A stretch of 64,000 bases of DNA from Pseudomonas tructae (GTDB lineage Bacteria > Pseudomonadota > Gammaproteobacteria > Pseudomonadales > Pseudomonadaceae). This document shows positions 16,349 through 28,930 of the stretch, piece by piece. Position 1 is the first letter of the stretch. Each line of letters starts with the position of its first letter. Both the position numbers and the translations under genes were made by a program. The notes beneath the pieces are model-generated. The model was not told where the DNA came from. It worked only from the letters and a program-made list of their open reading frames with translations, and did not search any database. The DNA is taken from contig NZ_CP035952.1 of assembly GCF_004214895.1 (NCBI RefSeq), forward strand, positions 868,001-932,000, given 5' to 3'.

Positions 16349-17917
16349 TCAAGCGCGGTTCAAGTACATCCGCGTAGTCAGCAGATACACCGGCAATCCC
16401 GATACCAGAATCAGCAACGCCGCATAAGGCGCCGCCGCCGCAAACTCGACATTGGCGGTATGCGCCCATACCTCGGTCGCCAGGGTGGTCATGCCCGTCG
16501 GGCTGAGCAGCAGGGTTGCCGTCAGCTCTTTCATGGCATCCAGGAATACCAGGGCAAAGGCTGCGGCCAGGGCCGGAAAGATGATCGGCAGGGTTACCCG
16601 GCAGAACGCGCTGAACTGCGTCGCACCGAGCGTGCGGGCGGCTTCTTCGAGCTGCGGCGCGGCCTTGTTCAGTGCCGTGCGCACTGGCGCCTGGGCCAGC
16701 GGCAGAAACAGCAGGGCATAGGCTAGCAGCAACAAGCCGGTGGTCTGGTACAGGGCCGGTACGTAGTGCAGGGCGAAGTACACCAGGGTCAGGGCAATCA
16801 CCAGGCCGGGCAGGGCATGCAGTAGGTACGGCAGGCGCTCGGCCCAGATCGCCAGGCGGCCTTTGTAGCGCACCACCAGGAAGCTGACCGGCAGGGCCAG
16901 CAACAAGCTCAAGCCGGCGCCACCCAGCGAGAGCGATAGCGACGAGACCAGCGCGCGGCTGATGTCGGCAACCGGGAAGGCAGCAGACGAGCCGACGCTC
17001 AACCAGTAGCCGAGCATTCCCAACGGAATGCCGCTGCCCAGCAGGGCCAGGATCAGGCAATACAACTGGCCCATCGGCATCCACCGGCGCAGGCGTATCG
17101 GCGGACCGCGCCGTGCTACACCCTGACCGATTCGCACATGCCGGGCCTTGCCGCGTACGCGCAATTCCAGCCAGAGCATCAACAGGCACATGAACAGCAG
17201 CACCGCCGAAAGCATGGCCGCGTTGGCGTTGCTGAACTCCAGTTCGAACTGCTGGTAGATCGCTGTGGTGAAGGTCTGCAGGCCAAGAATCGACAGGGCG
17301 CCGAATTCCACCAGCATGTGCAGGGCAATCAGCAGGCTGCCGCCGATGATCGACGGCCACAGCAACGGCAGGGTGATGCGAAAGAACACGCCCCAGCGTG
17401 TCTGGCCCAGGGTGCGCGCCGACTCTTCCAGCGAGGTGTCGAGGTTGCGCAGGGTTGCCGCCACCGGCAGGAACACCAGTGGATACTTGGACAGGCTCAT
17501 CACCAGGATGGCGCCGCCCAGGCCTTCGAAGCGCGGGCTGAGCGATACCCAGGTAAAACCGCTGACAAAGGCCGGTACGGCAAACGGCAGGCACAGGATC
17601 ACCCCCCACAGGCGCCGCCCTGGCAGGTCACTGCGCTCCAGCAGCCAGGCCAGGGACACGCCCAGGGCCATGCAGGCCAGGGTCACCCCGGCCATCAGCA
17701 TCAAGGTGTTGCGCAGCAGCCCCCAGACGAAAGGGCGCCAGAGCAAGTGCAGGGCTTCCCGCCAGCCCGCTTCCCAGGCTTTCAGGGCCACATACAGCAG
17801 GGGTAGCAGGCTCAGTCCGACCAGCAGCAGTACCGGCAGCACCACCCAGATCGACGGGCGCTTGCGCTTGGGTATGTAGCGGCTGGCCAGTGTGGCCGCA
17901 GGCAGGGCTGCACTCAT
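16349..17917 (-). CDS. Ferric iron ABC transporter permease (FbpB/SfuB type)
   Basis: This 522-residue inner membrane permease is made of two fused homologous halves, with about twelve membrane segments. Each half carries a cytoplasmic EAA loop: LEESARTLGQTRWGVF (about residue 165) and LEEAARTLGATQFSAF (about 427). This is the FbpB/SfuB/HitB architecture for Fe3+ uptake. The start codon overlaps the stop of the binding-protein gene by one nt, showing an operon. No ATPase gene follows in the window, so the ATPase must be encoded elsewhere. Confidence 0.92.
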   Translation of the reverse strand: MSAALPAATLASRYIPKRKRPSIWVVLPVLLLVGLSLLPLLYVALKAWEAGWREALHLLWRPFVWGLLRNTLMLMAGVTLACMALGVSLAWLLERSDLPGRRLWGVILCLPFAVPAFVSGFTWVSLSPRFEGLGGAILVMSLSKYPLVFLPVAATLRNLDTSLEESARTLGQTRWGVFFRITLPLLWPSIIGGSLLIALHMLVEFGALSILGLQTFTTAIYQQFELEFSNANAAMLSAVLLFMCLLMLWLELRVRGKARHVRIGQGVARRGPPIRLRRWMPMGQLYCLILALLGSGIPLGMLGYWLSVGSSAAFPVADISRALVSSLSLSLGGAGLSLLLALPVSFLVVRYKGRLAIWAERLPYLLHALPGLVIALTLVYFALHYVPALYQTTGLLLLAYALLFLPLAQAPVRTALNKAAPQLEEAARTLGATQFSAFCRVTLPIIFPALAAAFALVFLDAMKELTATLLLSPTGMTTLATEVWAHTANVEFAAAAPYAALLILVSGLPVYLLTTRMYLNRA

Positions 17918-18930
17918 TACAGCAGGCCAACTTCGCGTTCAAGCTCCAGGGCTTCTTCGGCGTTGCCCAGGTCGGCCGGAGTGATTTTCGGTGGACGCAG
18001 GTCTTCGAAGGGTTTCAGGCCCCGGTCCGAGACCATACCTTTATGCAATGGATACTCGGCAGTGGTCTGGGTGATCACCCGCTGGCCTTCTTCGCTGGCC
18101 ATCCAGGCCAGCAGGGCCTGGGCTTCTTTGGGGTGCTTGCTGGCTTTTACCGCGGCGGCGCTGGAGATGGTCACCAGGCCGCCGGCGTCGCCGTCGGCCA
18201 GGTAATAGAGTTTCGAATCCAGCTGGCCGCGCTCTTTCTTCAGGGCATACCAGTAATAGTTGTTCACCAGCACGGCAGCCACTTCGCCGTTCTCCACGGC
18301 TTTGAGCGCCACCATGTTGTTGGAGTAGGTCTTGCCGAAGGCCTTGAGGCCGGTTAGCCATTCTTCGGCGGCGTCACGGCCGTGCAGTTTGAGGATGGCC
18401 ACGGCCTGCTCCTGGAAGGCACCGCTGGTCGGTACGAAACCGATCTTGCCTTCCCATTCGGGGTCGGCGAAATCCATCACCGAGGGCGGCAGGTCTTTCT
18501 CGTCGATCACCTTTGGGTTGAAGGCAACCACGCGGGTACGCGCCGTCACGCCCATCCAGGTGCCATTGCTGGCGACGTATTCCTTGGGGAGGACCTGCAG
18601 GGTCGAATCATCGATCTTGGCCAGCAGGCCCAGCTCGCCGAGGTTGTTCAGCGGTGGCGATTCTTCGGTATAGATGACGTCGGCAGGGGAGCGATCACCC
18701 TCTTCGATGATCTGGCTGGCCAGCTGGTTGCTGCTGCCCTTACGGATATTGATGCGGATGCCGGTCTTGGCCTCGTAGGCCTTAGCAATGGCTTCGCCGA
18801 TTTCCTTGTGTTGACCGTTGTACAGGGTCAGTGCCACGGAGTCGGCGGCCATGGCAGCCGGGGTGCCCAGCAGCATGGCAAAAACAGAGACGGCCAGGCC
18901 GCGCAACAGGGGGTTATTGCGGAACGTCAT
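17917..18930 (-). CDS. Ferric iron ABC transporter periplasmic binding protein (FbpA type)
   Basis: This 337-residue class D solute-binding protein has a signal peptide ending APAAMAA-like (GTPAAMA, about residue 28). It begins the mature part with ALTLYNGQHKEIGEAIAKAY and contains ADVIYTEESPPLNNLGELGLL. The VNNYYWYALK segment (about residues 225-234) holds the adjacent Tyr residues that bind Fe3+ in this family. The start is ATG at 18930 with a strong GAGGAAG upstream. A Fur-box-like sequence lies 36-54 nt upstream, which suggests iron repression. The permease gene follows with a 1-nt overlap. Confidence 0.93.
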   Translation of the reverse strand: MTFRNNPLLRGLAVSVFAMLLGTPAAMAADSVALTLYNGQHKEIGEAIAKAYEAKTGIRINIRKGSSNQLASQIIEEGDRSPADVIYTEESPPLNNLGELGLLAKIDDSTLQVLPKEYVASNGTWMGVTARTRVVAFNPKVIDEKDLPPSVMDFADPEWEGKIGFVPTSGAFQEQAVAILKLHGRDAAEEWLTGLKAFGKTYSNNMVALKAVENGEVAAVLVNNYYWYALKKERGQLDSKLYYLADGDAGGLVTISSAAAVKASKHPKEAQALLAWMASEEGQRVITQTTAEYPLHKGMVSDRGLKPFEDLRPPKITPADLGNAEEALELEREVGLL

Positions 18931-18965
18931 GCGGGTACTTCCTCGCTTGCGGCTACATATCTGGA

Positions 18966-18984
18966 AACAATGATAATCGATATC
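18966..18984 (-). promoter_or_regulatory. Fur box upstream of the ferric iron transporter
   Basis: AACAATGATAATCGATATC matches the 19-bp Fur consensus GATAATGATAATCATTATC at 15 of 19 positions by eye. It lies just upstream of the iron-binding-protein gene, where Fe-Fur would block transcription. Confidence 0.75.
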
Positions 18985-19197
18985 GCTTCTCAAATGGCCT
19001 TGCGCGGGAAAATTCATGAGCTGGCTATCGATTTAAGTCATCTCCGATAAGGTCTTAGGCGAGGTCCGTCAGACCGAAAAATTCTGTCAAGAATTGCTCA
19101 ACGTTCAAGATTTCAAGGGCTTGTGGATCGGTCGTATAGTGCTGCCATTCGATAACTGTTCTTGTTACTGCCGGGCCAATCTAGCCAGGAGCTACAC

Positions 19198-19485
19198 GTG
19201 ATTCCCCTTCAAGGGTTGCTGGGGGCATCGGTCTGTCGTGAGAGCCAGCCTTTCAATGTCGGGGGAGAACTGCTTCAAATGAGTGATTTTCAGGAACGAA
19301 AACTGACAAGAAGGGAAGTTGAGGTTCTGGAGTTCCTGCTACTGGGGAAAAGTAACAAGCAGATCGGACTTCTGCTGGATATAAGTGATTTCACTGTCAG
19401 GGATCATGTGTCGTCGTTATTGAGGAAACATGGAGTTGAGGGGCGCGGTGCTCTCATGCGCCTCAAACTGAGTGAGTCGAAGTAA
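19198..19485 (+). CDS. Small LuxR-family (GerE-type HTH) regulator
   Basis: This 95-residue protein consists almost entirely of a LuxR-type helix-turn-helix (about residues 32-92): KLTRREVEVLEFLLLGKSNK, then QIGLLLDISDFTVRDHVSSL and LRKHGV. There is no receiver or autoinducer domain, so its activating signal is unknown. GTG 19198 is chosen because CCAGGAG precedes it; an upstream in-frame start at 19162 is weaker. It is the first gene of the microcin-like island and is followed by a perfect palindrome, so it probably regulates the downstream export and precursor genes (inference). Confidence 0.85.
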   Translation: MIPLQGLLGASVCRESQPFNVGGELLQMSDFQERKLTRREVEVLEFLLLGKSNKQIGLLLDISDFTVRDHVSSLLRKHGVEGRGALMRLKLSESK

Positions 19486-19497
19486 ATTCATTGGTAT

Positions 19498-19513
19498 CCC
19501 TACACGTGTAGGG
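19498..19513. promoter_or_regulatory. Perfect 16-bp palindrome, candidate operator
   Basis: CCCTACACGTGTAGGG is a perfect inverted repeat 12 nt after the LuxR-type gene and 135 nt before the HlyD-type gene. It has no T-run and no loop, so it looks like a dimer-binding site rather than a terminator. The likely ligand is the adjacent regulator, by position only. Confidence 0.5.
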
Positions 19514-19647
19514 TGGTGGTGTGGCGTGCGGGTTACTAGTATTTGTCCAACGGCCGTTTGGTTGTCGGAACATTGGGACTACGCTGTGTAATTGTTTCCG
19601 CTGTTGTTCTTAATTGCAATTGGATGAATCTATGCACAGAGTGATTG

Positions 19648-20925
19648 ATGACGGCGAATGTTCTATTCCGTCCAGAAGCAATAGAGGCTGCTAGTGCTCA
19701 GCGTTTGGGCGTCGTATTGATCCACCAGCCTTGGGGCTATCGAGTTGCAGGAGGGTTGGCCGGTGTCTTGATTATTCTGATCCTTGCGTTTGGCTACTTC
19801 GGTACCTACACACGGAAGGCGACGGTCAGCGGCCTACTGATGCCAGAGCAAGGCATGTTTCGCTTGACGGCCAGCAGTGCGGGACTGCTGGCCAACGTAA
19901 AAGTTGTTGAAGGGCAACAGGTAAAGGCTGGAGAAGTGCTTTTCGTGGTTTCCGGCGAGCGCCTCTCCAATGCAGGAGGAGCCCAGAAGCTCATTTCCAA
20001 ACAACTCCGCGAGCGCTTGCAATTGTTGGAGCGTAACCGTGCTGTTGCAAACGACCGGCTCGCAGAGCAAGGGCGCATGGCCGAGGATCGCCTCGCAGTT
20101 ATTGCTCAGGAGCTACGTCAGTTCCAGGAAGAAATCCGTCTTCTAGCGCGCCGTAGGGAGCTGGCACACGCTCAGATGCAGCGACAGCAAACGCTGGTAA
20201 AAGCTGGTTTCATTTCGATTGCCCAGCTTCAGCAGGCCGAAGCAGAGCACCTGATGATCGAAGGGCAGCAACAAAGTACACAGCGTGCTCGAAACAGCCT
20301 TGATCGTGAACGCACAGTGTTGCAGGCGCAACGCCAGGACATCGTGTTAAGGCATTTGGCAGAAATATCGGATGTCGACAAAAGCATCGCGCTGGTTAGG
20401 CAAGAGCAGGCTGAAAACGATGCGCGTGAAGAGCAGATATTCGTTGCGCCGTTTGACGGTACTGTTACTGGGTTGAATGTACAGGCAGGTCAGCATGTTG
20501 CATCAGGGAGTTTGCTCGCCAGTTTGATTCCGGTCGGAACTGTGTTGACGGCTCATCTCTATGTCGAGTCCCGGCGTGCCGGATTTATTGAGGTAGGTCA
20601 AGCCGTATTAATGAGGTATTCCGCATATCCGTACCAGAAATTTGGAATGGGGCGCGGAAAGGTAATCGGTCTTACGAAAAGTCCTTACGCGGCTTCAGAG
20701 TTACCTCTCCATGTTGTCAGTGCGGTCGGAATTGGAGGTGGTGTGACGACGCTCTACTATCGGGTAGTGGTTGAACTGGATTCTCAGAGTGTAGACGTTT
20801 ACGGACGGCATCAACCTTTGCAAGTAGGTATGTTGCTGGAGGGGGATGTGAAACAGGACACCCGGCGTCTCTATGAGTTTGCACTTGAGCCGATTTATTC
20901 GGTGATAGGGAAGCGCCGCGGATAG
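19648..20925 (+). CDS. HlyD/CvaA-family membrane fusion protein
   Basis: This 425-residue periplasmic adaptor of a type I secretion system has a single N-terminal membrane segment (VAGGLAGVLIILILAFGYFG, about residues 33-52). A biotinyl/lipoyl-like half (SAGLLANVKVVEGQQVKAGE), a long Gln/Arg-rich coiled-coil hairpin (about 110-255), the second lipoyl half (APFDGTVTGLNVQAGQHV) and a beta-barrel region follow. This is the CvaA layout used with peptidase-containing exporters. ATG 19648 is used; a TTG directly in front could also initiate. It couples the C39-ABC exporter to the TolC-like protein encoded further downstream. Confidence 0.9.
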   Translation: MTANVLFRPEAIEAASAQRLGVVLIHQPWGYRVAGGLAGVLIILILAFGYFGTYTRKATVSGLLMPEQGMFRLTASSAGLLANVKVVEGQQVKAGEVLFVVSGERLSNAGGAQKLISKQLRERLQLLERNRAVANDRLAEQGRMAEDRLAVIAQELRQFQEEIRLLARRRELAHAQMQRQQTLVKAGFISIAQLQQAEAEHLMIEGQQQSTQRARNSLDRERTVLQAQRQDIVLRHLAEISDVDKSIALVRQEQAENDAREEQIFVAPFDGTVTGLNVQAGQHVASGSLLASLIPVGTVLTAHLYVESRRAGFIEVGQAVLMRYSAYPYQKFGMGRGKVIGLTKSPYAASELPLHVVSAVGIGGGVTTLYYRVVVELDSQSVDVYGRHQPLQVGMLLEGDVKQDTRRLYEFALEPIYSVIGKRRG

Positions 20926-20935
20926 GGCGCGGCGC
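20913..20935 (+). terminator. GC-rich hairpin over the HlyD stop codon
   Basis: GCGCCGCG (20913-20920) pairs with CGCGGCGC (20928-20935) around the TAG stop. There is no T-run after it. It may attenuate transcription or protect the 3' end between the adaptor gene and the small genes that follow; its role is uncertain. Confidence 0.4.
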
Positions 20936-20985
20936 ATCTCTCGATGCACTCAAAGCGGTATGGTAACAGTTAAGTTGATAATGAG

Positions 20986-21264
20986 GTGTTGTTCGCCAGC
21001 GTGTGTCTTATGTTTTTATGGGGGGCAATGGCTACTATGTATGTGAAGAGAATATTAACATTTGATAGGTTTATGGTTGTGTATAAGGTACTGCTCGGAG
21101 GGCTCGTGTTGGCTAGCGCTGGCTTGACAATCTTGTCCGTATTTCAAGGGAGTTGTCGAGAGGCGTTAGATTTGTTTAAAAGCTTGACTATATATTCGTT
21201 TTTTCTGTGGTACGGTTTTAATGTGCGCCAAATAGAGGCTTGGGTTTCTGAAGATATAAAGTGA
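20986..21264 (+). CDS. Small integral membrane protein, immunity candidate 1
   Basis: No family is recognised. From GTG 20986 the frame encodes 92 residues with three hydrophobic stretches: residues 1-18, VVYKVLLGGLVLASAGLTIL and LTIYSFFLWYGF. ATG 21037 (MYVKRILTF, with GGGGGG about 10 nt upstream) is a plausible start and leaves two to three membrane segments. It overlaps the next gene by one nt (TGATG). Position directly before a microcin precursor, small size and membrane location make it a possible immunity protein. Codon use is much more AT-rich than in the flanking chromosome. Confidence 0.6.
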   Translation: MLFASVCLMFLWGAMATMYVKRILTFDRFMVVYKVLLGGLVLASAGLTILSVFQGSCREALDLFKSLTIYSFFLWYGFNVRQIEAWVSEDIK

Positions 21265-21533
21265 TGTTTTTAGATGCGGAGTTGCCGGTGCAAATCAGTG
21301 AGGAGGCTATTAGTGTTTTCAGATTTAATTTTACCTGCGCGGGTTGTCGTGTGGTTTTGATTGATTTTTTATGTTTTGTTTTTGTGTTTCTGTGTGCGTT
21401 TGGTGCTTTATTTGGGCTGCGATTCGTATTCGGTTGGAAATTTGGCCTGAGGGATTTTGGAGTGTTTCTTCAGTTGTTACTGCTTTCTGGGATTTTGGGT
21501 CGTGTACTACGGGAAGCTATTGTTGGGTGGTAA
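21264..21533 (+). CDS. Small integral membrane protein, immunity candidate 2
   Basis: This 89-residue protein has two strongly hydrophobic segments: VVLIDFLCFVFVFLCAFGAL (about residues 30-50) and FGVFLQLLLLSGILG (about 68-82). It is unrecognised. Its ATG overlaps the stop of the preceding small membrane gene, so the two are translationally coupled. The first microcin precursor starts 36 nt downstream. An immunity or secretion-accessory role is inferred from the position only. AT-rich codon use marks it as part of the transferred island. Confidence 0.6.
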   Translation: MFLDAELPVQISEEAISVFRFNFTCAGCRVVLIDFLCFVFVFLCAFGALFGLRFVFGWKFGLRDFGVFLQLLLLSGILGRVLREAIVGW

Positions 21534-21569
21534 GCTAATTTCTTATATTTCTAGGCTGGAGTGAATAAA

Positions 21570-21905
21570 GTGCGTGAGTTATCTATTGGTGATGTCGAGT
21601 TGATTTCTGGTGGGGTTGGGCCTGTTGGGGCTGCTCTAGGAGGCGTTGCGGGTGGGGCTCAATATATAGGGTACAGCGCAGTTAGAGGAGATGGTGGTTT
21701 TACTGGTTTAGTTGGAAGTGTTGTGGCCGGGGCTGCATTGGGGTTTGTAGCGGGGCCTGCCGGTCTGTCGGCGATGCAGGCTGGGGCGGCGGCAATAGTA
21801 AGTGGGCAGGCAGGTGTGTACTCTGGAATGGCAGGAGGATATATCCATAATGCGCTTGACTCGGCAGGAACTGACTACAATGTAGATGGATGCAACTACA
21901 ATTAA
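21570..21905 (+). CDS. Class II microcin-like precursor 1, double-glycine leader
   Basis: The start GTG 21570 gives a 111-residue precursor beginning MRELSIGDVELISGG, a canonical 15-residue double-glycine leader (Leu -12, Ile -4, Gly -2, Gly -1). GGAG lies eight nt upstream. A GTG nine nt earlier is in frame but worse placed. The mature part (96 residues, starting VGPVGAALGG) is Gly/Ala-rich with many GxxxG-like helices, one Cys, and a polar tail SAGTDYNVDGCNYN. This matches gene-encoded, ribosomally made antibacterial peptides of the microcin V / E492 type. The C39-ABC exporter encoded 2 kb downstream is the likely processor. Target and activity are unknown. Confidence 0.8.
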   Translation: MRELSIGDVELISGGVGPVGAALGGVAGGAQYIGYSAVRGDGGFTGLVGSVVAGAALGFVAGPAGLSAMQAGAAAIVSGQAGVYSGMAGGYIHNALDSAGTDYNVDGCNYN

Positions 21906-21976
21906 ATATATTTATGGTCGAGTGTGGGGGTTTAGGGTTTTTAGGGTTATTTAAATTAATGGCAGAGGGTAAGGTG

Positions 21977-22465
21977 ATGTCTAGTGCTGGATTTCTGTCG
22001 TGGGGTAAGTGTTCAAAAAAAATTGAGCAGTTGTTTTATAATAAATTAATGGTCATTTCCGGTTGGGGGGCGGGACTAGGAGTGCTTTTTTCACTTTTCA
22101 GTCATCGAGTCAGTATTTCCTCTGGTGCCTTTATGTTGTTGGATGGTGCCCTGGCATTATCTACAGCTGTGTTCTTTTTGTTGTTGGTTTATGCCTTCGC
22201 TACTTTTATTTCTATTCCCGTTGAGAGGTTGGAGGCTGGTGGTTTACGTATCTATCCAGTAGGCCGATCTAGGCGGGTTGTTGGGGTGGGGGTTTCTTTA
22301 TTTATGATGCTGAGTGGCTTGCTTTTGCTTGGCTATTGTCAAGGTAACAAGGATGTTACAAAAACGGCAGTGGTATTAGGTGGGCAAGTGTTCGGCGTTG
22401 GTTTTATATTTTGTTGTGTTGGTGTAGTGCAACTTCTGCGGAGGGGGAGTAATGAGAATTCTTGA
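21977..22465 (+). CDS. Four-helix membrane protein, immunity candidate 3
   Basis: This 162-residue protein has four clear hydrophobic segments: VISGWGAGLGVLFSLF; LLDGALALSTAVFFLLLVYA; GVGVSLFMMLSGLLLLGYC; and GVGFIFCCVGVVQLL. It is not recognised. The start ATG 21977 has AGAGGGTAAGG just upstream; the frame is open back to 21890 but overlaps precursor 1. It ends 14 nt inside precursor 2, so it is translationally coupled to it. Its place between two precursors suits an immunity protein; that is inference. Confidence 0.65.
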   Translation: MSSAGFLSWGKCSKKIEQLFYNKLMVISGWGAGLGVLFSLFSHRVSISSGAFMLLDGALALSTAVFFLLLVYAFATFISIPVERLEAGGLRIYPVGRSRRVVGVGVSLFMMLSGLLLLGYCQGNKDVTKTAVVLGGQVFGVGFIFCCVGVVQLLRRGSNENS

Positions 22466-22781
22466 AGTTAGAGAGCTATGTTTTATTGGGGGTGGAGATG
22501 GCGGTGCCGGTCAAGCTGCAGCCGCTGGTGTGGGAGGTGCTGTTGGGGGCGCCGCAGGGAAAGCTGCCGGAGGTGTTGCAGGTGGTTACTTGGGCGGGTT
22601 TGTGGGATCGGTGTTTGGCCCACTTGGGACGGTTGGAGGTGCTGTTGCAGGTAGGGCTGCTGGACAGTTTGTTGGCGGCGCGGTGGGCGCAGGGCTAGGA
22701 GGCTATGGCGCTTCGGAGGCCTACGAGAAAGCTGGAACCAATTACTCAGGGAATGACAGTGACGGCACCGGCTATAACTAA
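22452..22781 (+). CDS. Class II microcin-like precursor 2, double-glycine leader
   Basis: This 109-residue precursor begins MRILEVRELCFIGGG. If cleaved after the third Gly, the leader is 15 residues, as in precursor 1, with Leu -12, Glu -8, Leu -7 and Ile -4 at the canonical positions. The mature part (94 residues, DGGAGQAAAAG...) is extremely Gly/Ala-rich with repeated GxxxG spacing. It ends KAGTNYSGNDSDGTGYN, which parallels the AGTDYN...NYN tail of precursor 1. A strong GGAGGGGGAG ribosome site precedes ATG 22452. The gene overlaps immunity candidate 3 by 14 nt. The two precursors may form a two-peptide bacteriocin. Confidence 0.8.
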   Translation: MRILEVRELCFIGGGDGGAGQAAAAGVGGAVGGAAGKAAGGVAGGYLGGFVGSVFGPLGTVGGAVAGRAAGQFVGGAVGAGLGGYGASEAYEKAGTNYSGNDSDGTGYN

Positions 22782-22808
22782 GTTTCCTGACGGTTGAAGG
22801 TGCAGTGA

Positions 22809-23963
22809 ATGAGTATTGATTTTAAGATTTCGGCATCAGATTTTATTGAGCATTACCAGGAGAAAAAGCCACTGTTGTTGAAGAAAGCTGTATCTGTTGA
22901 GTATTGTTCTTGGAGAGATGCTAACGAAATTATGCAGTGGAGCAATGTGGGGTCCAGTGATTTCAAGCTTGCTCTGGGCGGGGTGCTGCCAAAGCATGAG
23001 TATGTGGAAAGCTATATGGATATCGGCACGCTCCGTCATAGACTCATCAAGCCAGCGGTCTACGACTATCTGCGCAAGGGCGCTACGCTGATCGCCAACA
23101 AGATAAGCAATCACCCGGTCATCAATCGCTATGCGCGACAGATTTCCGACTTTACCGGGCGGCAGGTAGTTAGCAGTGCGTATGCCGCGTTCGGAACCGA
23201 GGATTCTTTTCGCTGCCATTGGGATACCCGTGATGTATTCGCCATTCAACTGATCGGGCGAAAACGGTGGACGGTATATGAGCCCTCGCTGATATCACCT
23301 CTGTATACCCAGCAGAGTAAGGACTATGAACAACAGCACCCATGTCCTGTGCAGCCTTACATGGACTTCATCCTTGAAGCAGGCGATGTGTTCTATTTAC
23401 CTCGAGGTTGGTGGCATAACCCGCTGCCCGTGGGGGAGCCGACGTTTCACTTGGCACTGGGGACCTTTCCTGCTTTCACGATGGACTATTTGAGCTGGAT
23501 GCTGAAGCAACTGCCCGCGTTCGTGGGGGCGCGACAATCGCTTGTCGGCTGGGAGAGTGACCGAAACAACCTGGCTGCAGTCGCTCGCTGCATCAGTAGC
23601 TTTGTTGCGGAGCCTGATAATTATCGTACTTTTATGGATGAGTTTGTTGGTGCGACGCGTGTGGAGTCAAGCCTGGCAATGGAAATGCTGGGCGATCCGA
23701 ATTGCCCTGTGGTACCGGATGACGCGAGAGTCAGACTGTGTGCCAGTAGGCCGTACGGTCTTGCAGACAACTATGTGATTGCCAACGGCACCAAGCTGAA
23801 GTTGGACGAGCAAGGTGGGCGTTTGATCAATCACATTGCGCATCAACCGGGCATCAGCTTGGGAACCTTATGTGCGGATTTTCCGGAATTGGATGCCGTT
23901 GCGTTGCGTAAGCTGATTACCGGTCTGTGCCGTCAGGATGTGCTGGAGTTAACGCCTTATTGA
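22809..23963 (+). CDS. JmjC/cupin-type 2-oxoglutarate Fe(II) oxygenase (ribosomal-oxygenase-like)
   Basis: This 384-residue protein resembles the RoxA/YcfD-MINA53-NO66 group of JmjC hydroxylases. The iron triad is visible: His137 and Asp139 in CHWDTRDVFAIQLIGRKRW and His203 in FYLPRGWWHNPLPVG. The N-terminal KKPLLLKKAV segment is also family-like. The C-terminal part (about 310-384) looks like the dimerisation / winged-helix tail. Known relatives hydroxylate Arg or His in ribosomal proteins. Here the gene is directly after precursor 2 and before the exporter, so a peptide-modifying role is more likely (inference). The housekeeping RoxA would normally lie elsewhere. Confidence 0.85.
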   Translation: MSIDFKISASDFIEHYQEKKPLLLKKAVSVEYCSWRDANEIMQWSNVGSSDFKLALGGVLPKHEYVESYMDIGTLRHRLIKPAVYDYLRKGATLIANKISNHPVINRYARQISDFTGRQVVSSAYAAFGTEDSFRCHWDTRDVFAIQLIGRKRWTVYEPSLISPLYTQQSKDYEQQHPCPVQPYMDFILEAGDVFYLPRGWWHNPLPVGEPTFHLALGTFPAFTMDYLSWMLKQLPAFVGARQSLVGWESDRNNLAAVARCISSFVAEPDNYRTFMDEFVGATRVESSLAMEMLGDPNCPVVPDDARVRLCASRPYGLADNYVIANGTKLKLDEQGGRLINHIAHQPGISLGTLCADFPELDAVALRKLITGLCRQDVLELTPY

Positions 23964-23995
23964 CCGCGCACTGCCGCCTCGGGGTATATCGATTC

Positions 23996-26074
23996 ATGAG
24001 AGTAACATTGCAAGCAGAAAGTTCGGAGTGTGGCCTGGCTTGTTTGGTCATGGTGGCCGGGTTTCACGGTCTGTACCTTGATTTGATGAATATGCGCCGG
24101 CGCTTTTCGGTCTCGATCAAGGGTATCAGCCTGACTCAATTAATACAGTACGCAGAACATCTGGAATTTTCCTGTCGGCCGTTGCGTCTTGAATTAGACG
24201 ATATGTCAAAACTCCGGACGCCTTGTATTTTGCATTGGAATATGAATCATTTTGTTGTGTTGGAGCGGGTTCGCGACCGATGCGTCTATATCCTCGATCC
24301 GGCGGTGGGTTGTCGAAAACTCACCCTGGCTGAAATCAGTACTCACTTTACTGGCGTAGCGCTTGAGTTGATCCCAACCGCCAAGTTTCGTCCGACACGA
24401 CACAAAGCTCGTATCAGATTGACCGAGCTGACCGGGCGGATGACCGGTTTCAAACGAGCATTGGGCAATATCTTTCTACTCGCCCTGGCACTTGAGCTGG
24501 TTGCCTTGACGGTACCTCAAGTTACGCAGTGGGTCGTCGACGTAGCGTTAGTCTCTGCTGATTATGATCTGCTGCTATTGGCGGTCTTGGGTGGCTGCTG
24601 GTTGATGGCAACCGACTTTATCTTGCGTATGGGCCAGGGTTGGATGGCGCTGCGCTTGAACCAGCAATTGATGCTGCAATGGACGGCAAACCTGTTCAGT
24701 CATCTGTTGCGATTGCCATGGCCCTTTTTCGAGAAACGACAACTCGGGGATATCTCCGCGCGCTTCCAGTCGCTGGGCGCGATTCGGAATGTACTGACCA
24801 ATGGTGCTATCACCGCAGTACTTGACGGGCTGGTAGTACTGATTACCTTGGGCATGATGTGGCTCTATAGCTCAAGCTTGGCGGGAATCGTTCTGGTCGC
24901 GCTGGTCTTGTATGCCTCGTTGCGGATGATTTTTTACCGGCCTCTACGCAATGCTTCAGAGGAACGTATTGTTCTGGCGGCCAGAGAAAATTCCTATTTT
25001 CTGGAGACAATCCGCGCCGCCTTGCCGCTCAAACTGTTCAACGTCACTTCACTACGCCTGGCGACCTGGCAAAACCTGGTTGTGGATGTGCAGAACCGGG
25101 ACGTAACCACCCAGAAAATGCAACTGACTTTCGCCTGCTTCAATACCTTGATCTTCGGTCTGGAGGGCATGTTGTTGCTGTACGTCGGCGGCACGCTCGT
25201 GCTGGGTGGCGGGATGTCGCTCGGGATGTTGTTGGCGTTCATTGCATACAAGAGCCAATTCACCGCGCGTGCGAGTAAGTTAATCGACCTCGGCGTCGAG
25301 CTTCGAATGCTTTCACTGCATGCCGAACGTTTGGCTGATATTGCGCTTGAGCAGACGGAGCCACAAAGTCTGGTGGAAACCGACGTGAGTCGGCTCGAGC
25401 CTCGAATTGAGTTCAGAGGCGTATCTTTCCGCTATGCCGAAGGTGAGCCCTGGATTCTACGAAGCTTGTCGATTGTCATTGAGGCGGGAGACTCCGTGGC
25501 AATTGTGGGGCGTTCGGGGTGTGGCAAAACGACGATGTTCAAGCTCATGATCGGCATACTCAGCCCCACTGAGGGGGAGATTCTGGTTGGCGGCATACCC
25601 CTCCGGCAATTGGGGTTGCCGGTATTACGCAGCCTGGTGGGGGCAGTTATGCAGGAGGATCATCTGCTGGCAGGTTCGTTATCAGAAAACATTGCATGCT
25701 TCGACCCAGAAGCGAGCCAGAGTCGGGTAGAGGAAGTCGCGCGGCAAGCCAATATTCATCAGGCTATTGTGCGCATGCCTATGGGTTACCAGACCCTGGT
25801 CGCTGAAATGGGCACTGGCCTTTCGGGTGGGCAGAAACAACGTGTGCTGTTGGCGCGAGCGTTGTATCGACAGCCGAAGATCCTGGCACTGGACGAGGCC
25901 ACCAGTCACCTGGACATTCACAGTGAGCAGCATGTTGTGCGGGCCTTGCATGGAATGGCGGCTACACGCATCGCCATCGCTCATCGCCGCGAAACTGTCG
26001 CTCTGGCAAAACGACTGATCTGTCTGGAAAAGGGAGAAGTTGCCGAGGACGTCCGTCTGGATCAACTGCCATGA
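23996..26074 (+). CDS. Peptidase-containing ABC exporter (C39, CvaB type)
   Basis: This 692-residue protein has three domains. The N-terminal C39 cysteine peptidase (about 1-130) shows Cys12 in SSECGLACLVM, His85 in HWNMNHFVVL and Asp101 in ILDP: a complete catalytic triad for cutting double-glycine leaders. The transmembrane domain (about 155-440) is followed by an ATPase domain with Walker A GRSGCGKTTM (about residue 505), the signature LSGGQKQR (about 609) and Walker B ILALDEA. ATG 23996 is used; the open frame upstream overlaps the oxygenase gene. It overlaps the TolC-like gene by 4 nt. It should both process and export the two precursors. Confidence 0.93.
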   Translation: MRVTLQAESSECGLACLVMVAGFHGLYLDLMNMRRRFSVSIKGISLTQLIQYAEHLEFSCRPLRLELDDMSKLRTPCILHWNMNHFVVLERVRDRCVYILDPAVGCRKLTLAEISTHFTGVALELIPTAKFRPTRHKARIRLTELTGRMTGFKRALGNIFLLALALELVALTVPQVTQWVVDVALVSADYDLLLLAVLGGCWLMATDFILRMGQGWMALRLNQQLMLQWTANLFSHLLRLPWPFFEKRQLGDISARFQSLGAIRNVLTNGAITAVLDGLVVLITLGMMWLYSSSLAGIVLVALVLYASLRMIFYRPLRNASEERIVLAARENSYFLETIRAALPLKLFNVTSLRLATWQNLVVDVQNRDVTTQKMQLTFACFNTLIFGLEGMLLLYVGGTLVLGGGMSLGMLLAFIAYKSQFTARASKLIDLGVELRMLSLHAERLADIALEQTEPQSLVETDVSRLEPRIEFRGVSFRYAEGEPWILRSLSIVIEAGDSVAIVGRSGCGKTTMFKLMIGILSPTEGEILVGGIPLRQLGLPVLRSLVGAVMQEDHLLAGSLSENIACFDPEASQSRVEEVARQANIHQAIVRMPMGYQTLVAEMGTGLSGGQKQRVLLARALYRQPKILALDEATSHLDIHSEQHVVRALHGMAATRIAIAHRRETVALAKRLICLEKGEVAEDVRLDQLP

Positions 26075-27387
26075 GGTGGCTCCAGTGGTTCTGTGTATCT
26101 CTAGCCATTATCACTCCGCAGGGCGCAGCACGGGCCGACGAGTTGATGAGGCACTACCGGAATGCGCTGGCGTACGACGCTCAGTTTTCCGCAGCTCGGG
26201 CTTTGAGTCAGGCGCGGGATGAGGAGCCGGCTCTTGCGCTTTCGGCTCTGCTTCCGAGCATTTCTCTGGATGCGCAAGTCAATTGGAGTCAAGCCTGGAG
26301 TCAGACCGCTGACGCTAGTCTTAAGCATCGTCGGCAGACGAATAGCTATGGAGTCCAGCTCCGGCAGCCAGTTTTTCGTTGGCAGAGTTGGGTGCAGTAT
26401 CAGCAAGGGCAACAACAGCAGGCCCTTGGGCGTTTGCAACTTGGGGTTGCTGCTCAGGCGCTGATAGTGCGTGTGGCGAAAGCCTATTTTGATGTGCTGA
26501 GTGCCAATGAGGTGCTTGGGGTGCTGAGTCGGCAGCGTGAAGTGGACGCCGAGCAACTGGCTGGAGCAAAAAAGCAATTCGAGTTGGGCGGCGTCAGTAT
26601 TGCTGATGTGCATGAGGCGCGGGCCAGTTTTGATCTTGTATCCGCGCGCCTTGTCGCAGCCCGGAGTGCGCTTGGCCTGGCTTGTCATGAGTTGAGTCGG
26701 ATCACGGGGGTTCCAGTGGGGGCGTTGCGTGGAGGCGCGAGCCGGCTGGGACCGGTGCGGCTGTTGCCTGCAGAGGCCGATGTCTGGGTAGTCTCTGCCA
26801 TGCGAAACAGCCTTGAGGTCCAGGTGCAGGAAGTGCTTGTGGCTGTGGCGAAGTATGAAGTTCAGAGCCGCAAAGCCGAGCACTTGCCGTCTGTTGATCT
26901 GGTCGCAAGTAAAAATGTACAGCAAGCCCCCAATGCCGGCATCGAGCGAGGTGGTGCGGCTAACATCGGTCTGCGTATGAGTATGCCGCTCTACGCTGGA
27001 GGTGGGACCAGCGCCGGTGTGCGCAAGGCCAAGGCGCTGGCGGCTAGAGCCGAGTATGAGCTTGAAGATGCGAGGAGAGCGGCCGCGTCACTGGCGCGTG
27101 AGGCCTGGGCCGGGGTGATTGATGGAAACGAGCAGGTGAGGGCGTTGGAGGCTGCGAAAATATCAGCAGAGTCGGCGCTTGCGGCCAACCAGCTCGGCTA
27201 CAAGGTCGGGGTGCGCACAGGAAGGGATGTGTTGGAAATGCAAAGTCAGTACAGCGAAACGCTTCAGCGGTTGTCTAGCGCTCGTTTTGGGACATTGCTG
27301 GCGCAGCTGCGTCTGAAGGCCGCCGTGGGGGCCTTGAGTGAGGCCGACCTGGCCGAGGTAAGCGGCCTGTTGTTTCAAAAAACTTGA
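26071..27387 (+). CDS. TolC-family outer membrane channel
   Basis: This 438-residue outer membrane efflux protein has a signal peptide (WLQWFCVSLAIITPQGAARA) and two repeated TolC-type halves. Typical elements are the N-terminal ADELMRHYRNALAYDAQFSAAR segment and the long helices with AYFDVLSANEVLGVLSRQRE and GVRTGRDVLEMQSQY. It forms the trans-envelope tunnel for the HlyD/C39-ABC pair, completing a type I secretion apparatus. Having a dedicated TolC inside the locus makes the island self-contained. It starts at an ATGA overlap with the exporter. Confidence 0.92.
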   Translation: MRWLQWFCVSLAIITPQGAARADELMRHYRNALAYDAQFSAARALSQARDEEPALALSALLPSISLDAQVNWSQAWSQTADASLKHRRQTNSYGVQLRQPVFRWQSWVQYQQGQQQQALGRLQLGVAAQALIVRVAKAYFDVLSANEVLGVLSRQREVDAEQLAGAKKQFELGGVSIADVHEARASFDLVSARLVAARSALGLACHELSRITGVPVGALRGGASRLGPVRLLPAEADVWVVSAMRNSLEVQVQEVLVAVAKYEVQSRKAEHLPSVDLVASKNVQQAPNAGIERGGAANIGLRMSMPLYAGGGTSAGVRKAKALAARAEYELEDARRAAASLAREAWAGVIDGNEQVRALEAAKISAESALAANQLGYKVGVRTGRDVLEMQSQYSETLQRLSSARFGTLLAQLRLKAAVGALSEADLAEVSGLLFQKT

Positions 27388-27400
27388 AAGGTAATTGGGG

Positions 27401-27526
27401 CAGAAACGAAAAAAAGCGCTTTCGGGGGAGGGGGGGAACTGAATTGGTGTCCAGAAGAAGACTCGAATTTCCACGACTTCACGGCCATGCATGGAGAGAG
27501 CTTCCACCTGATTCACCATCTGTTTC
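27401..27526 (-). pseudogene. Decayed tRNA-Leu copy with its terminator region
   Basis: On the minus strand this segment resembles the intact tRNA-Leu genes and downstream terminator at 28620-28746. CAGAAACGAAAAAA (27401-27414) is identical. The 3' half of the tRNA (27445-27477, CCA end, acceptor and T arm) differs at two positions. The anticodon and D-arm regions are badly decayed, and the 5' end is lost near 27526. The terminator stem is replaced by a G-rich run. It abuts the end of the microcin locus and looks like an attachment-site scar or lost tandem tRNA. Confidence 0.7.
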
Positions 27527-27669
27527 GTGCCATTTCGTATTGGAAGCTCAAGAAAGCTCATCGGATCCTGTTGATGTCGCGAATGCGGGGTTTTGCGTAT
27601 TTTTTGTTGTACCGTCGATGTGGGCTGGAATTTTATCGAACGACAAAGCAGCGACAGGGGGCGTTATCA

Positions 27670-28659: not shown

Positions 28660-28746
28660 TGGTGCCCAGAAGAAGACTCGAACTTCCACGACCGTAAGGT
28701 CACCAGCACCTGAAGCTGGCGTGTCTACCAATTTCACCATCTGGGC
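28660..28746 (-). tRNA. tRNA-Leu (anticodon CAG), copy 1
   Basis: The minus strand reads GCCCAGATGGTGAAATTGG at the 5' end and closes with CTGGGC plus an encoded CCA. The anticodon stem CCAGC/GCTGG holds the loop TTCAGGT, anticodon CAG. A long variable arm (class II tRNA) and a T arm with GTTCGAGTC follow. It is 87 nt with CCA. Confidence 0.96.
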
Positions 28747-28843: not shown

Positions 28844-28930
28844 TGGTGCCCAGAAGAAGACTCGAACTTCCACGACCGTAAGGTCACCAGCACCTGAAGC
28901 TGGCGTGTCTACCAATTTCACCATCTGGGC
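28844..28930 (-). tRNA. tRNA-Leu (anticodon CAG), copy 2
   Basis: Identical over its full 87 nt to copy 1, which lies 97 nt downstream on the same strand. The pair is probably co-transcribed from a minus-strand promoter in 28931-29050. Tandem tRNA-Leu genes next to rnr are, from memory, usual in Pseudomonas. Confidence 0.96.

Follow-up and report, generated by a model that had tools for sequence, protein, structure and literature searches.

A microcin-like gene block of Pseudomonas tructae that pairs a JmjC oxygenase with a conserved precursor tail

A 64,000-nucleotide stretch of the Pseudomonas tructae genome (NZ_CP035952.1, positions 868,001 to 932,000; the whole stretch is the window, and positions are counted from its first letter) contains a block of ten open reading frames (ORFs), all on the + strand, at 19162-27387. 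The block encodes two small peptide precursors with double-glycine leaders, a JmjC 2-oxoglutarate oxygenase and an exporter with its own adaptor and outer membrane channel, and both precursors end in a G-x-[N/D]-Y tail that accompanies the oxygenase in related loci. Loci are numbered with L and genomes with G, where G000 is the genome of the window and G000:C1 its contig. Every gene named in a preliminary description of the block, drawn from the letters of the window, was recovered in the ORF list and the Pfam scan.

Genes of the block

The precursors share their general design and differ in their cores. Precursor 1 (21561..21905) is 114 aa long, with an 18-aa leader (21561-21614) that meets the mature peptide at MNKVRELSIGDVELISGG/VGP, a Gly/Ala-rich core and the tail SAGTDYNVDGCNYN (21861-21902). 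Precursor 2 (22452..22781) is 109 aa long, with a 15-aa leader (22452-22496; MRILEVRELCFIGGG/DGG), a GxxxG-rich core and the tail AGTNYSGNDSDGTGYN (22731-22778). If cut after the double glycine, the mature peptides would have masses of 8886 Da and 8175 Da, so that both combine the double-glycine-type leader of class II microcins with a mature mass below 10 kDa, and the block supplies the C39-peptidase ABC exporter, membrane fusion protein and TolC that go with this class. Both precursors also have the length of 60-151 aa, the G[GAS] leader and the short polar or charged C-terminus by which Cdz-like bacteriocins were defined in PMC5380434 section 13. The 16 GxxxG motifs of precursor 2 are attained in 1.5% of shuffles and the 8 of precursor 1 in 13.9%; since shuffles attain the latter count, we do not treat precursor 1 as a proven glycine zipper. 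A search with precursor 2 found one relative, P0001, at 54% identity. Neither precursor, nor any of the three small membrane ORFs described below, matched a Pfam or NCBIfam family over the cut-off, and matches of the precursors to MccV and DmpG in Pfam and to cerein-7B in NCBIfam lay below it and were not used.

The JmjC oxygenase (22809..23963; JmjC_2, 6.4e-27) has the architecture of ribosomal oxygenases. The enzyme looks intact, because H137, D139, K152 and H203 are invariant in the 83-row alignment A4. Its predicted structure (predicted local distance difference test, pLDDT, 93.3) matches NO66, MINA53 and YcfD over nearly the whole length, and it shares with these and with RoxA both the ribosomal-oxygenase fold and the HxD...H iron site, here H137/D139/H203. 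On the other hand, it differs from all of them in adjoining toxin precursors, in an identity of only 16-18% over the top 17 structural alignments, and in the presence of a second JmjC_2 gene in the same genome. This separate gene, at G000:C1:2391701, scores 7.0e-43 in a genome scan, compared with 2.6e-27 for the gene of the block, which is thus not the best match of the genome to the L16 hydroxylase family; judged by sequence, the better-scoring gene is likely the L16 hydroxylase. The ROXA-like_wH domain reaches 15.1 bits on the protein of the block, under the cut-off of 22.

Export would rely on a HlyD-type periplasmic adaptor (19645..20925; HlyD_3, 8.1e-15; 58-77% identical to four relatives), a C39 peptidase-ABC exporter (23996..26074; Peptidase_C39, 4.3e-33, plus ABC_membrane and ABC_tran) and a TolC-family outer membrane channel (26071..27387; OEP, 1.2e-49; TIGR01844, 277.6 bits against a cut-off of 225.15). 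We corrected the exporter start to the ATG at 23996, the start at 23927 belonging to an over-extended ORF; numbered from this ATG, the Cys12, His85 and Asp101 triad is intact, as had been claimed.

Two small proteins with two predicted membrane segments each precede precursor 1 (20986..21264, with no Pfam match, and 21261..21533, with none over the cut-off), and a 191-aa protein with about five such segments lies between the precursors (21890..22465). On the basis of hydropathy and position, the first two are candidate immunity proteins and the third is a candidate immunity partner of precursor 2. When ORFs were called mechanically, the window and 8 of 8 relatives (L008, L010-L013, L015, L067 and L068) all had some with predicted membrane segments near the precursors, and in L067 and L068, too, ORFs with several segments directly precede the precursor. 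An unannotated 76-aa ORF with two predicted membrane segments (L015:7456-7686) directly precedes the precursor of an Acinetobacter baumannii plasmid record and is another candidate immunity gene.

The block opens with a small LuxR-type helix-turn-helix regulator (19198..19485; GerE, the LuxR helix-turn-helix family, 2.1e-13) that contains little besides this domain. It starts either at the GTG at 19198, which the preliminary description had chosen and which has AGGAG six bases 5' of it, or at an internal ATG at 19279; its counterparts in L012 and L013 are short ORFs of 67-69% identity. Because several neighbouring genes share a few bases at their ends (21890/21905, 22452/22465 and 26071/26074), the arrangement is operon-like.

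The precursor tail and the distribution of the oxygenase

One or two copies of G-x-[N/D]-Y within four residues of the C-terminal end, the form in which the rule was finally set, close the precursors in 10 of 10 counted JmjC loci and in 0 of 13 JmjC-less C39 loci with a clear precursor (Fisher's exact p 8.7e-7, uncorrected for relatedness and with a rule framed after the tails were seen). The controls derive from a search with the exporter (E <= 1e-130, three candidates scored per genome) that hit 25 places, spread over 22 of 298 Pseudomonas genomes. Five of these, with exporters 69-100% identical to that of the window, are JmjC loci; the other 20 (39-52%) gave no JmjC match in the fetched stretches, four of which are shortened by contig ends (L044, L047, L049 and L058). 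Clear double-glycine precursors, with leaders picked by eye, were present in 13 of the 20, and the remaining seven were left out. Some of the control precursors are Gly/Ala-rich like those of the window (L049, L059, L060 and L063), and the controls include near copies (L050/L055/L056 and L052/L053/L054). L055 (G000:C1:2557300-2575300) is a second, JmjC-less C39-ABC/HlyD system of the host genome itself, with its exporter at 2565369; its double-glycine peptide, FSVSAGSWTLTGG..., is encoded on the opposite strand and recurs nearly unchanged in L050 and L056.

Outside the ten counted loci stand L007 (a 35% JmjC match with 1.5-kb flanks), L014 (in which the JmjC gene is split), L069 and L070; with L007 counted, the tail is present in 10 of 11. 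In L069 and L070, two A. baumannii plasmids, insertion elements interrupt or shorten the JmjC gene but leave HlyD and exporter genes in place; L069 retains a tail precursor and L070 showed no tail ORF. L016 is included among the ten despite a broken precursor, whose leader and tail are in separate frames. This record (NZ_CP119142.1, 2.17 Mb) is a gonococcal sequence of chromosome size that is listed as a plasmid, and the exporter of its JmjC-C39 locus is broken as well.

Applied to the 2707 ORFs of 60-150 aa in all fetched loci minus two duplicates, the tail rule matched 25: one by chance, and 24 that are JmjC-locus precursors (12 different ones, the others being repeats from overlapping loci). 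Gly103, Thr104 and Tyr106 are invariant in the nine-row precursor alignment A1, and Gly103 and Tyr106 in the 16 rows of A5. A search with A1 returned 16 proteins, and all 15 newly found ones end in the tail, a result that is partly built in because A1 itself contains the tail. Among 27 tails, some near-identical, two copies occur in 16 and a single copy in 11; Asn or Asp fills the third position of 26 of the 27 first copies and of 13 of the 16 second copies, while the constancy of Gly and Tyr is uninformative because the regular expression fixes them.

The tail follows the oxygenase and not the exporter, since the exporters of L067 and L068 are only 48% identical to that of the window, no closer than those of JmjC-less loci, yet the tails are kept (SGANYQDGSNYQK and SGTNYQDGSSYQ). 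Likewise, the L015 precursor has a short, unrelated core and a GA leader and still ends in the tail (AGNDYCEDGGNY). JmjC loci form three groups in the exporter tree, which requires three changes, but 5% of 200 bootstrap trees need one; we therefore rejected the tree as proof of repeated JmjC transfer, and it is compatible with a single origin. The pairing of JmjC with this tail in microcins is not described in the titles and abstracts of the best 20 or 40 open-licence PMC papers matched per search, and we regard it as the new element of the locus.

The JmjC-linked form is uncommon in Pseudomonas. At E <= 1e-30 the JmjC protein was found at seven places in 5 of the 298 sampled Pseudomonas genomes, including its own, and at 1e-40 it was found in 1 of 369 genomes of the class, which is its own. 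Surveys with alignment A2 at 1e-60, in samples that overlap, yielded 2 of 398 genomes for the phylum (its own and G841), 1 of 293 for the order (its own), 2 of 53 for the genus of G841 and 1 of 255 for the family of G841 (G841 itself). A protein database held 238 JmjC relatives at E <= 0.001, the best 120 of which include proteins from Pseudomonas, Burkholderia, Achromobacter, Comamonas, Herbaspirillum, Thauera and Cellvibrio, and a plasmid collection held relatives in 10 records (7 Acinetobacter, 2 Neisseria and 1 Moraxella). Related JmjC genes adjoin C39 exporters on A. baumannii plasmids, on plasmid pLQ510 of Moraxella catarrhalis and in the gonococcal chromosome.

Comparison of gene order, which the preliminary description had proposed as a check, recovered homologous gene sets in other Pseudomonas genomes, and the block is for that reason more than a chance assembly. 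Genome G127 carries both a full block (L012) and a JmjC-precursor pair with no exporter within about 9 kb (L011). In P. akapageensis (L008) a related block occupies the same chromosomal spot, with six flanking proteins 87-96% identical. The adaptor, oxygenase, exporter and channel are 73-86% identical between the two species (78% for the JmjC protein), compared with 48% for precursor 1 and 36-44% over 33-54 residues for the two small membrane proteins; in a separate reading, the match is weak over 33-35 aa for the protein at 20986..21264 and 44-47% over 51-54 aa for that at 21261..21533. Nothing in the P. akapageensis block matches precursor 2 or the 191-aa protein, and the DNA of about 20.9-22.85 kb does not align. 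The faster divergence of the precursor and membrane genes, relative to the machinery and flanks, is what diversifying toxin-immunity genes carried on conserved machinery would be expected to show.

Known relatives and the proposed mode of action

By gene content the nearest characterised relative is Mcc17978 of A. baumannii, an antibacterial microcin made by mcaABCD (Bisaro et al. 2023, PMC10333792; here and below, comparisons with published systems draw on parts of the papers cited). It likewise combines a microcin gene with a double-glycine-type leader (GA/GG), a cupin/JmjC gene, HlyD and C39-ABC genes, and all of these types lie in one block in the window. Fiu or PiuA serves as its receptor, low iron raises its production, and in those parts its class and modification are left open by the authors (PMC10333792). 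The plasmid record L015 has the mcaABCD gene order and a JmjC protein 35% identical over 99% of the query; we do not equate it with Mcc17978, because its GA stands at residues 14-15 and that of Mcc17978 is stated to be at 15-16 (PMC10333792). The window differs from Mcc17978 in its two larger Gly/Ala-rich precursors, LuxR-type regulator, own TolC and several membrane ORFs, and in having no clear Fur box at the block.

Cdz of Caulobacter, a contact-dependent glycine-zipper bacteriocin (Garcia-Bayona et al. 2017, PMC5380434), resembles the window in having a pair of small, glycine-rich precursors whose leaders are of the G[GAS] type, a type I exporter and a membrane immunity protein, for which the window offers candidates. 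As presented in the parts of that paper drawn on, the Cdz cluster lacks a TolC of its own, unlike the window, and the word 'JmjC' is absent from the main text. The four-gene mcbABCI bacteriocin operon of M. catarrhalis plasmid pLQ510 (Attia et al. 2009, PMC2761928) shares HlyD, C39-ABC, a double-glycine precursor and an immunity gene (again candidates in the window), although by eye McbI is unlike the candidate immunity proteins here. A JmjC relative, split into two ORFs (L014:39-1120; 44.5% identity over 69% of the query), lies just upstream of mcbABCI and is not part of the operon as described in the portion of PMC2761928 consulted.

Class IIb microcins such as MccE492 and MccH47 carry enterobactin on a Ser-rich tail (PMC11634061), a conserved C-terminal element for entry through siderophore receptors, and the tails of the window are likewise conserved at the C-terminus. 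Unlike in that class, no recognisable siderophore-attachment genes were found among the ten ORFs by Pfam and NCBIfam, and the two tails contain no Ser-rich siderophore-attachment motif. BpmG and PbsQ, JmjC or cupin-like hydroxylases of biphenomycin-type ribosomally synthesized and post-translationally modified peptides, offer a parallel for a JmjC-type enzyme acting on a ribosomal precursor, as proposed for the window; their substrate is arginase-made ornithine, and the window holds no such motif or partner enzymes in the form known from the parts of PMC12257519 used here.

The block belongs to a known but very small group. We lean towards reading it as a microcin-like system of the Mcc17978 type that makes two bacteriocin peptides, in which the JmjC enzyme hydroxylates the shared tail before export, the peptides enter through a receptor and membrane proteins confer immunity. 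The two precursors would be made with their double-glycine leaders, and the oxygenase would hydroxylate their common tail in the cytoplasm, most simply on Asn/Asp or Tyr. To judge from the protein families and the intact triad, the C39-ABC exporter would then cut after the double glycine and release the peptides through HlyD and the dedicated TolC. By analogy with Mcc17978 and Fiu/PiuA, target cells might offer the modified tail a docking site in a TonB-dependent siderophore receptor, after which the Gly/Ala-rich core might damage the inner membrane, and the small membrane proteins beside the precursors may protect the producer. Within this scheme the peptides are very probably antibacterial and modification of the tail is reasonably probable, whereas the siderophore-receptor route, which rests on analogy, is put forward tentatively. 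It is also conceivable, if doubtful, that the enzyme makes iron-binding groups (beta-hydroxy-Asn/Asp, or a Tyr catechol) out of residues of the tail, and that the toxin thereby passes for a siderophore with no need of the enterobactin-attachment pathway known from class IIb. Such toxins would make up a third class of modified microcins, with members in Pseudomonas, Burkholderia, Acinetobacter and Neisseria.

Several observations weigh against the scheme. The tail rule was framed with the tails in view and depends on its four-residue limit: 5 of 13 controls hold a looser G-x-[N/D/G/S]-Y 10-26 residues from the end (GGNY at 15 in L045, the one of the five with Asn; GGSY at 10 in L054; GGSY and GAGY at 18-26 in L050/L055/L056), and a looser initial rule also flagged L045, which the final rule does not. 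L007, in genome G127, has neither a tail ORF nor an exporter in its 1.5-kb flanks. Conservation of the tail could stem from receptor binding alone, the sole Fur-like site near the block adjoins a divergent transport gene, and we know of no JmjC enzyme that hydroxylates an aromatic ring. McbC of M. catarrhalis kills without the tail, its neighbouring JmjC gene being split. Finally, the cupin McaB, supplied on a plasmid, was enough by itself to protect A. baumannii from Mcc17978, and the authors call McaB an immunity protein (PMC10333792 section 25).

This last result is an argument for regarding the JmjC protein as the immunity protein, one that binds or oxidises the incoming toxin through its tail or modifies the target, and an immunity protein that recognises the tail would account equally for the pairing. 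We nevertheless consider this unlikely: ORFs with membrane segments, candidates for the same role, stand near the precursors in the window and all eight relatives, and those of the window have diverged fast relative to P. akapageensis, in the manner of immunity proteins, whereas the JmjC protein retains 78% identity. Moreover, an oxygenase that is presumably cytoplasmic and keeps its iron site intact would be an odd defence against a membrane-active peptide, and a single JmjC protein serves two different cores. It is similarly improbable, in our view, that the block encodes an ordinary unmodified class II or Cdz-like bacteriocin whose tail is only a receptor-binding or surface-retention motif, the oxygenase acting on a host protein or being a passenger. 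The fold is that of ribosomal oxygenases, whose substrates are ribosomal proteins, and the precursors fit the Cdz-like profile of PMC5380434 section 13 in length, leader and polar tail, but the oxygenase and tail occur together with different exporters, and in L011 with no exporter nearby, and the genome keeps a separate, better-scoring JmjC_2 gene. That the peptides are not toxins at all, but secreted glycine-rich signals, surface amyloids or autolysis factors, seems very unlikely. Double-glycine peptides can act in autolysis (the nap island, PMC11798529) and in biofilm control (PMC4997328), yet the precursor and membrane-protein genes diverge fast, candidate immunity genes are present and the Acinetobacter relative is antibacterial (PMC10333792).

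A hydroxylated tail in a bacteriocin of the Mcc17978 type would agree with the preliminary reading of the block as a class II microcin locus with a possible tailoring enzyme. That reading is still the best supported, and comparison backs the link between JmjC and precursor, the function being predicted from sequence. Its claims of novelty were overstated, both outside Enterobacteriaceae, where Mcc17978 offers the same set of gene types, cupin included (PMC10333792), and in Pseudomonas, since Cdz-like candidates in P. aeruginosa are already listed in PMC5380434 section 13. If the oxygenase modifies the tail, a class of modified microcins would exist outside Enterobacterales, and the unexplained cupin of Mcc17978 would gain a testable substrate, which bears on the modification question left by its authors. 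The tail also offers a simple signature for finding further members.

Chromosomal setting and iron control

The host genome is a single 5.69-Mb contig. GC content drops from 61-64% in the flanks to 53% for the block as a whole and 47% for 20.9-22.85 kb. The left flank contains a chemoreceptor gene and a divergent pair of solute-binding protein and permease genes; the pair, judged from sequence to be of iron type, is absent from the P. akapageensis block region. A Fur-box-like site (18966-18984, 15/19; the best of 100 shuffles scored 14) sits upstream of the divergent solute-binding-protein gene (17917-19017), and the best scores in nine relatives, 12-14/19, are inside the shuffled range; Fur control of the block is thus unsupported. 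Promoter-like and terminator-like sites were no commoner than in shuffles. The block has no near match in the plasmid collection and no relative among viral contigs that would indicate carriage by a plasmid or phage.

To the right lie an EamA-type transporter gene, tRNA-Leu and the RNase R gene. A 33-base tRNA-Leu fragment (27445..27477, 94% identical) lies just 3' of the block, and two whole, identical tRNA-Leu(cag) genes follow on the - strand (28660-28746 and 28844-28930). In the region 27445-27570 the next ORF begins with a stretch whose resemblance to part of a fatty-acid desaturase is weak and below the cut-off. Together, the fragment, the desaturase-like ORF start and the two tRNA-Leu genes suggest a past insertion or rearrangement at the tRNA site.

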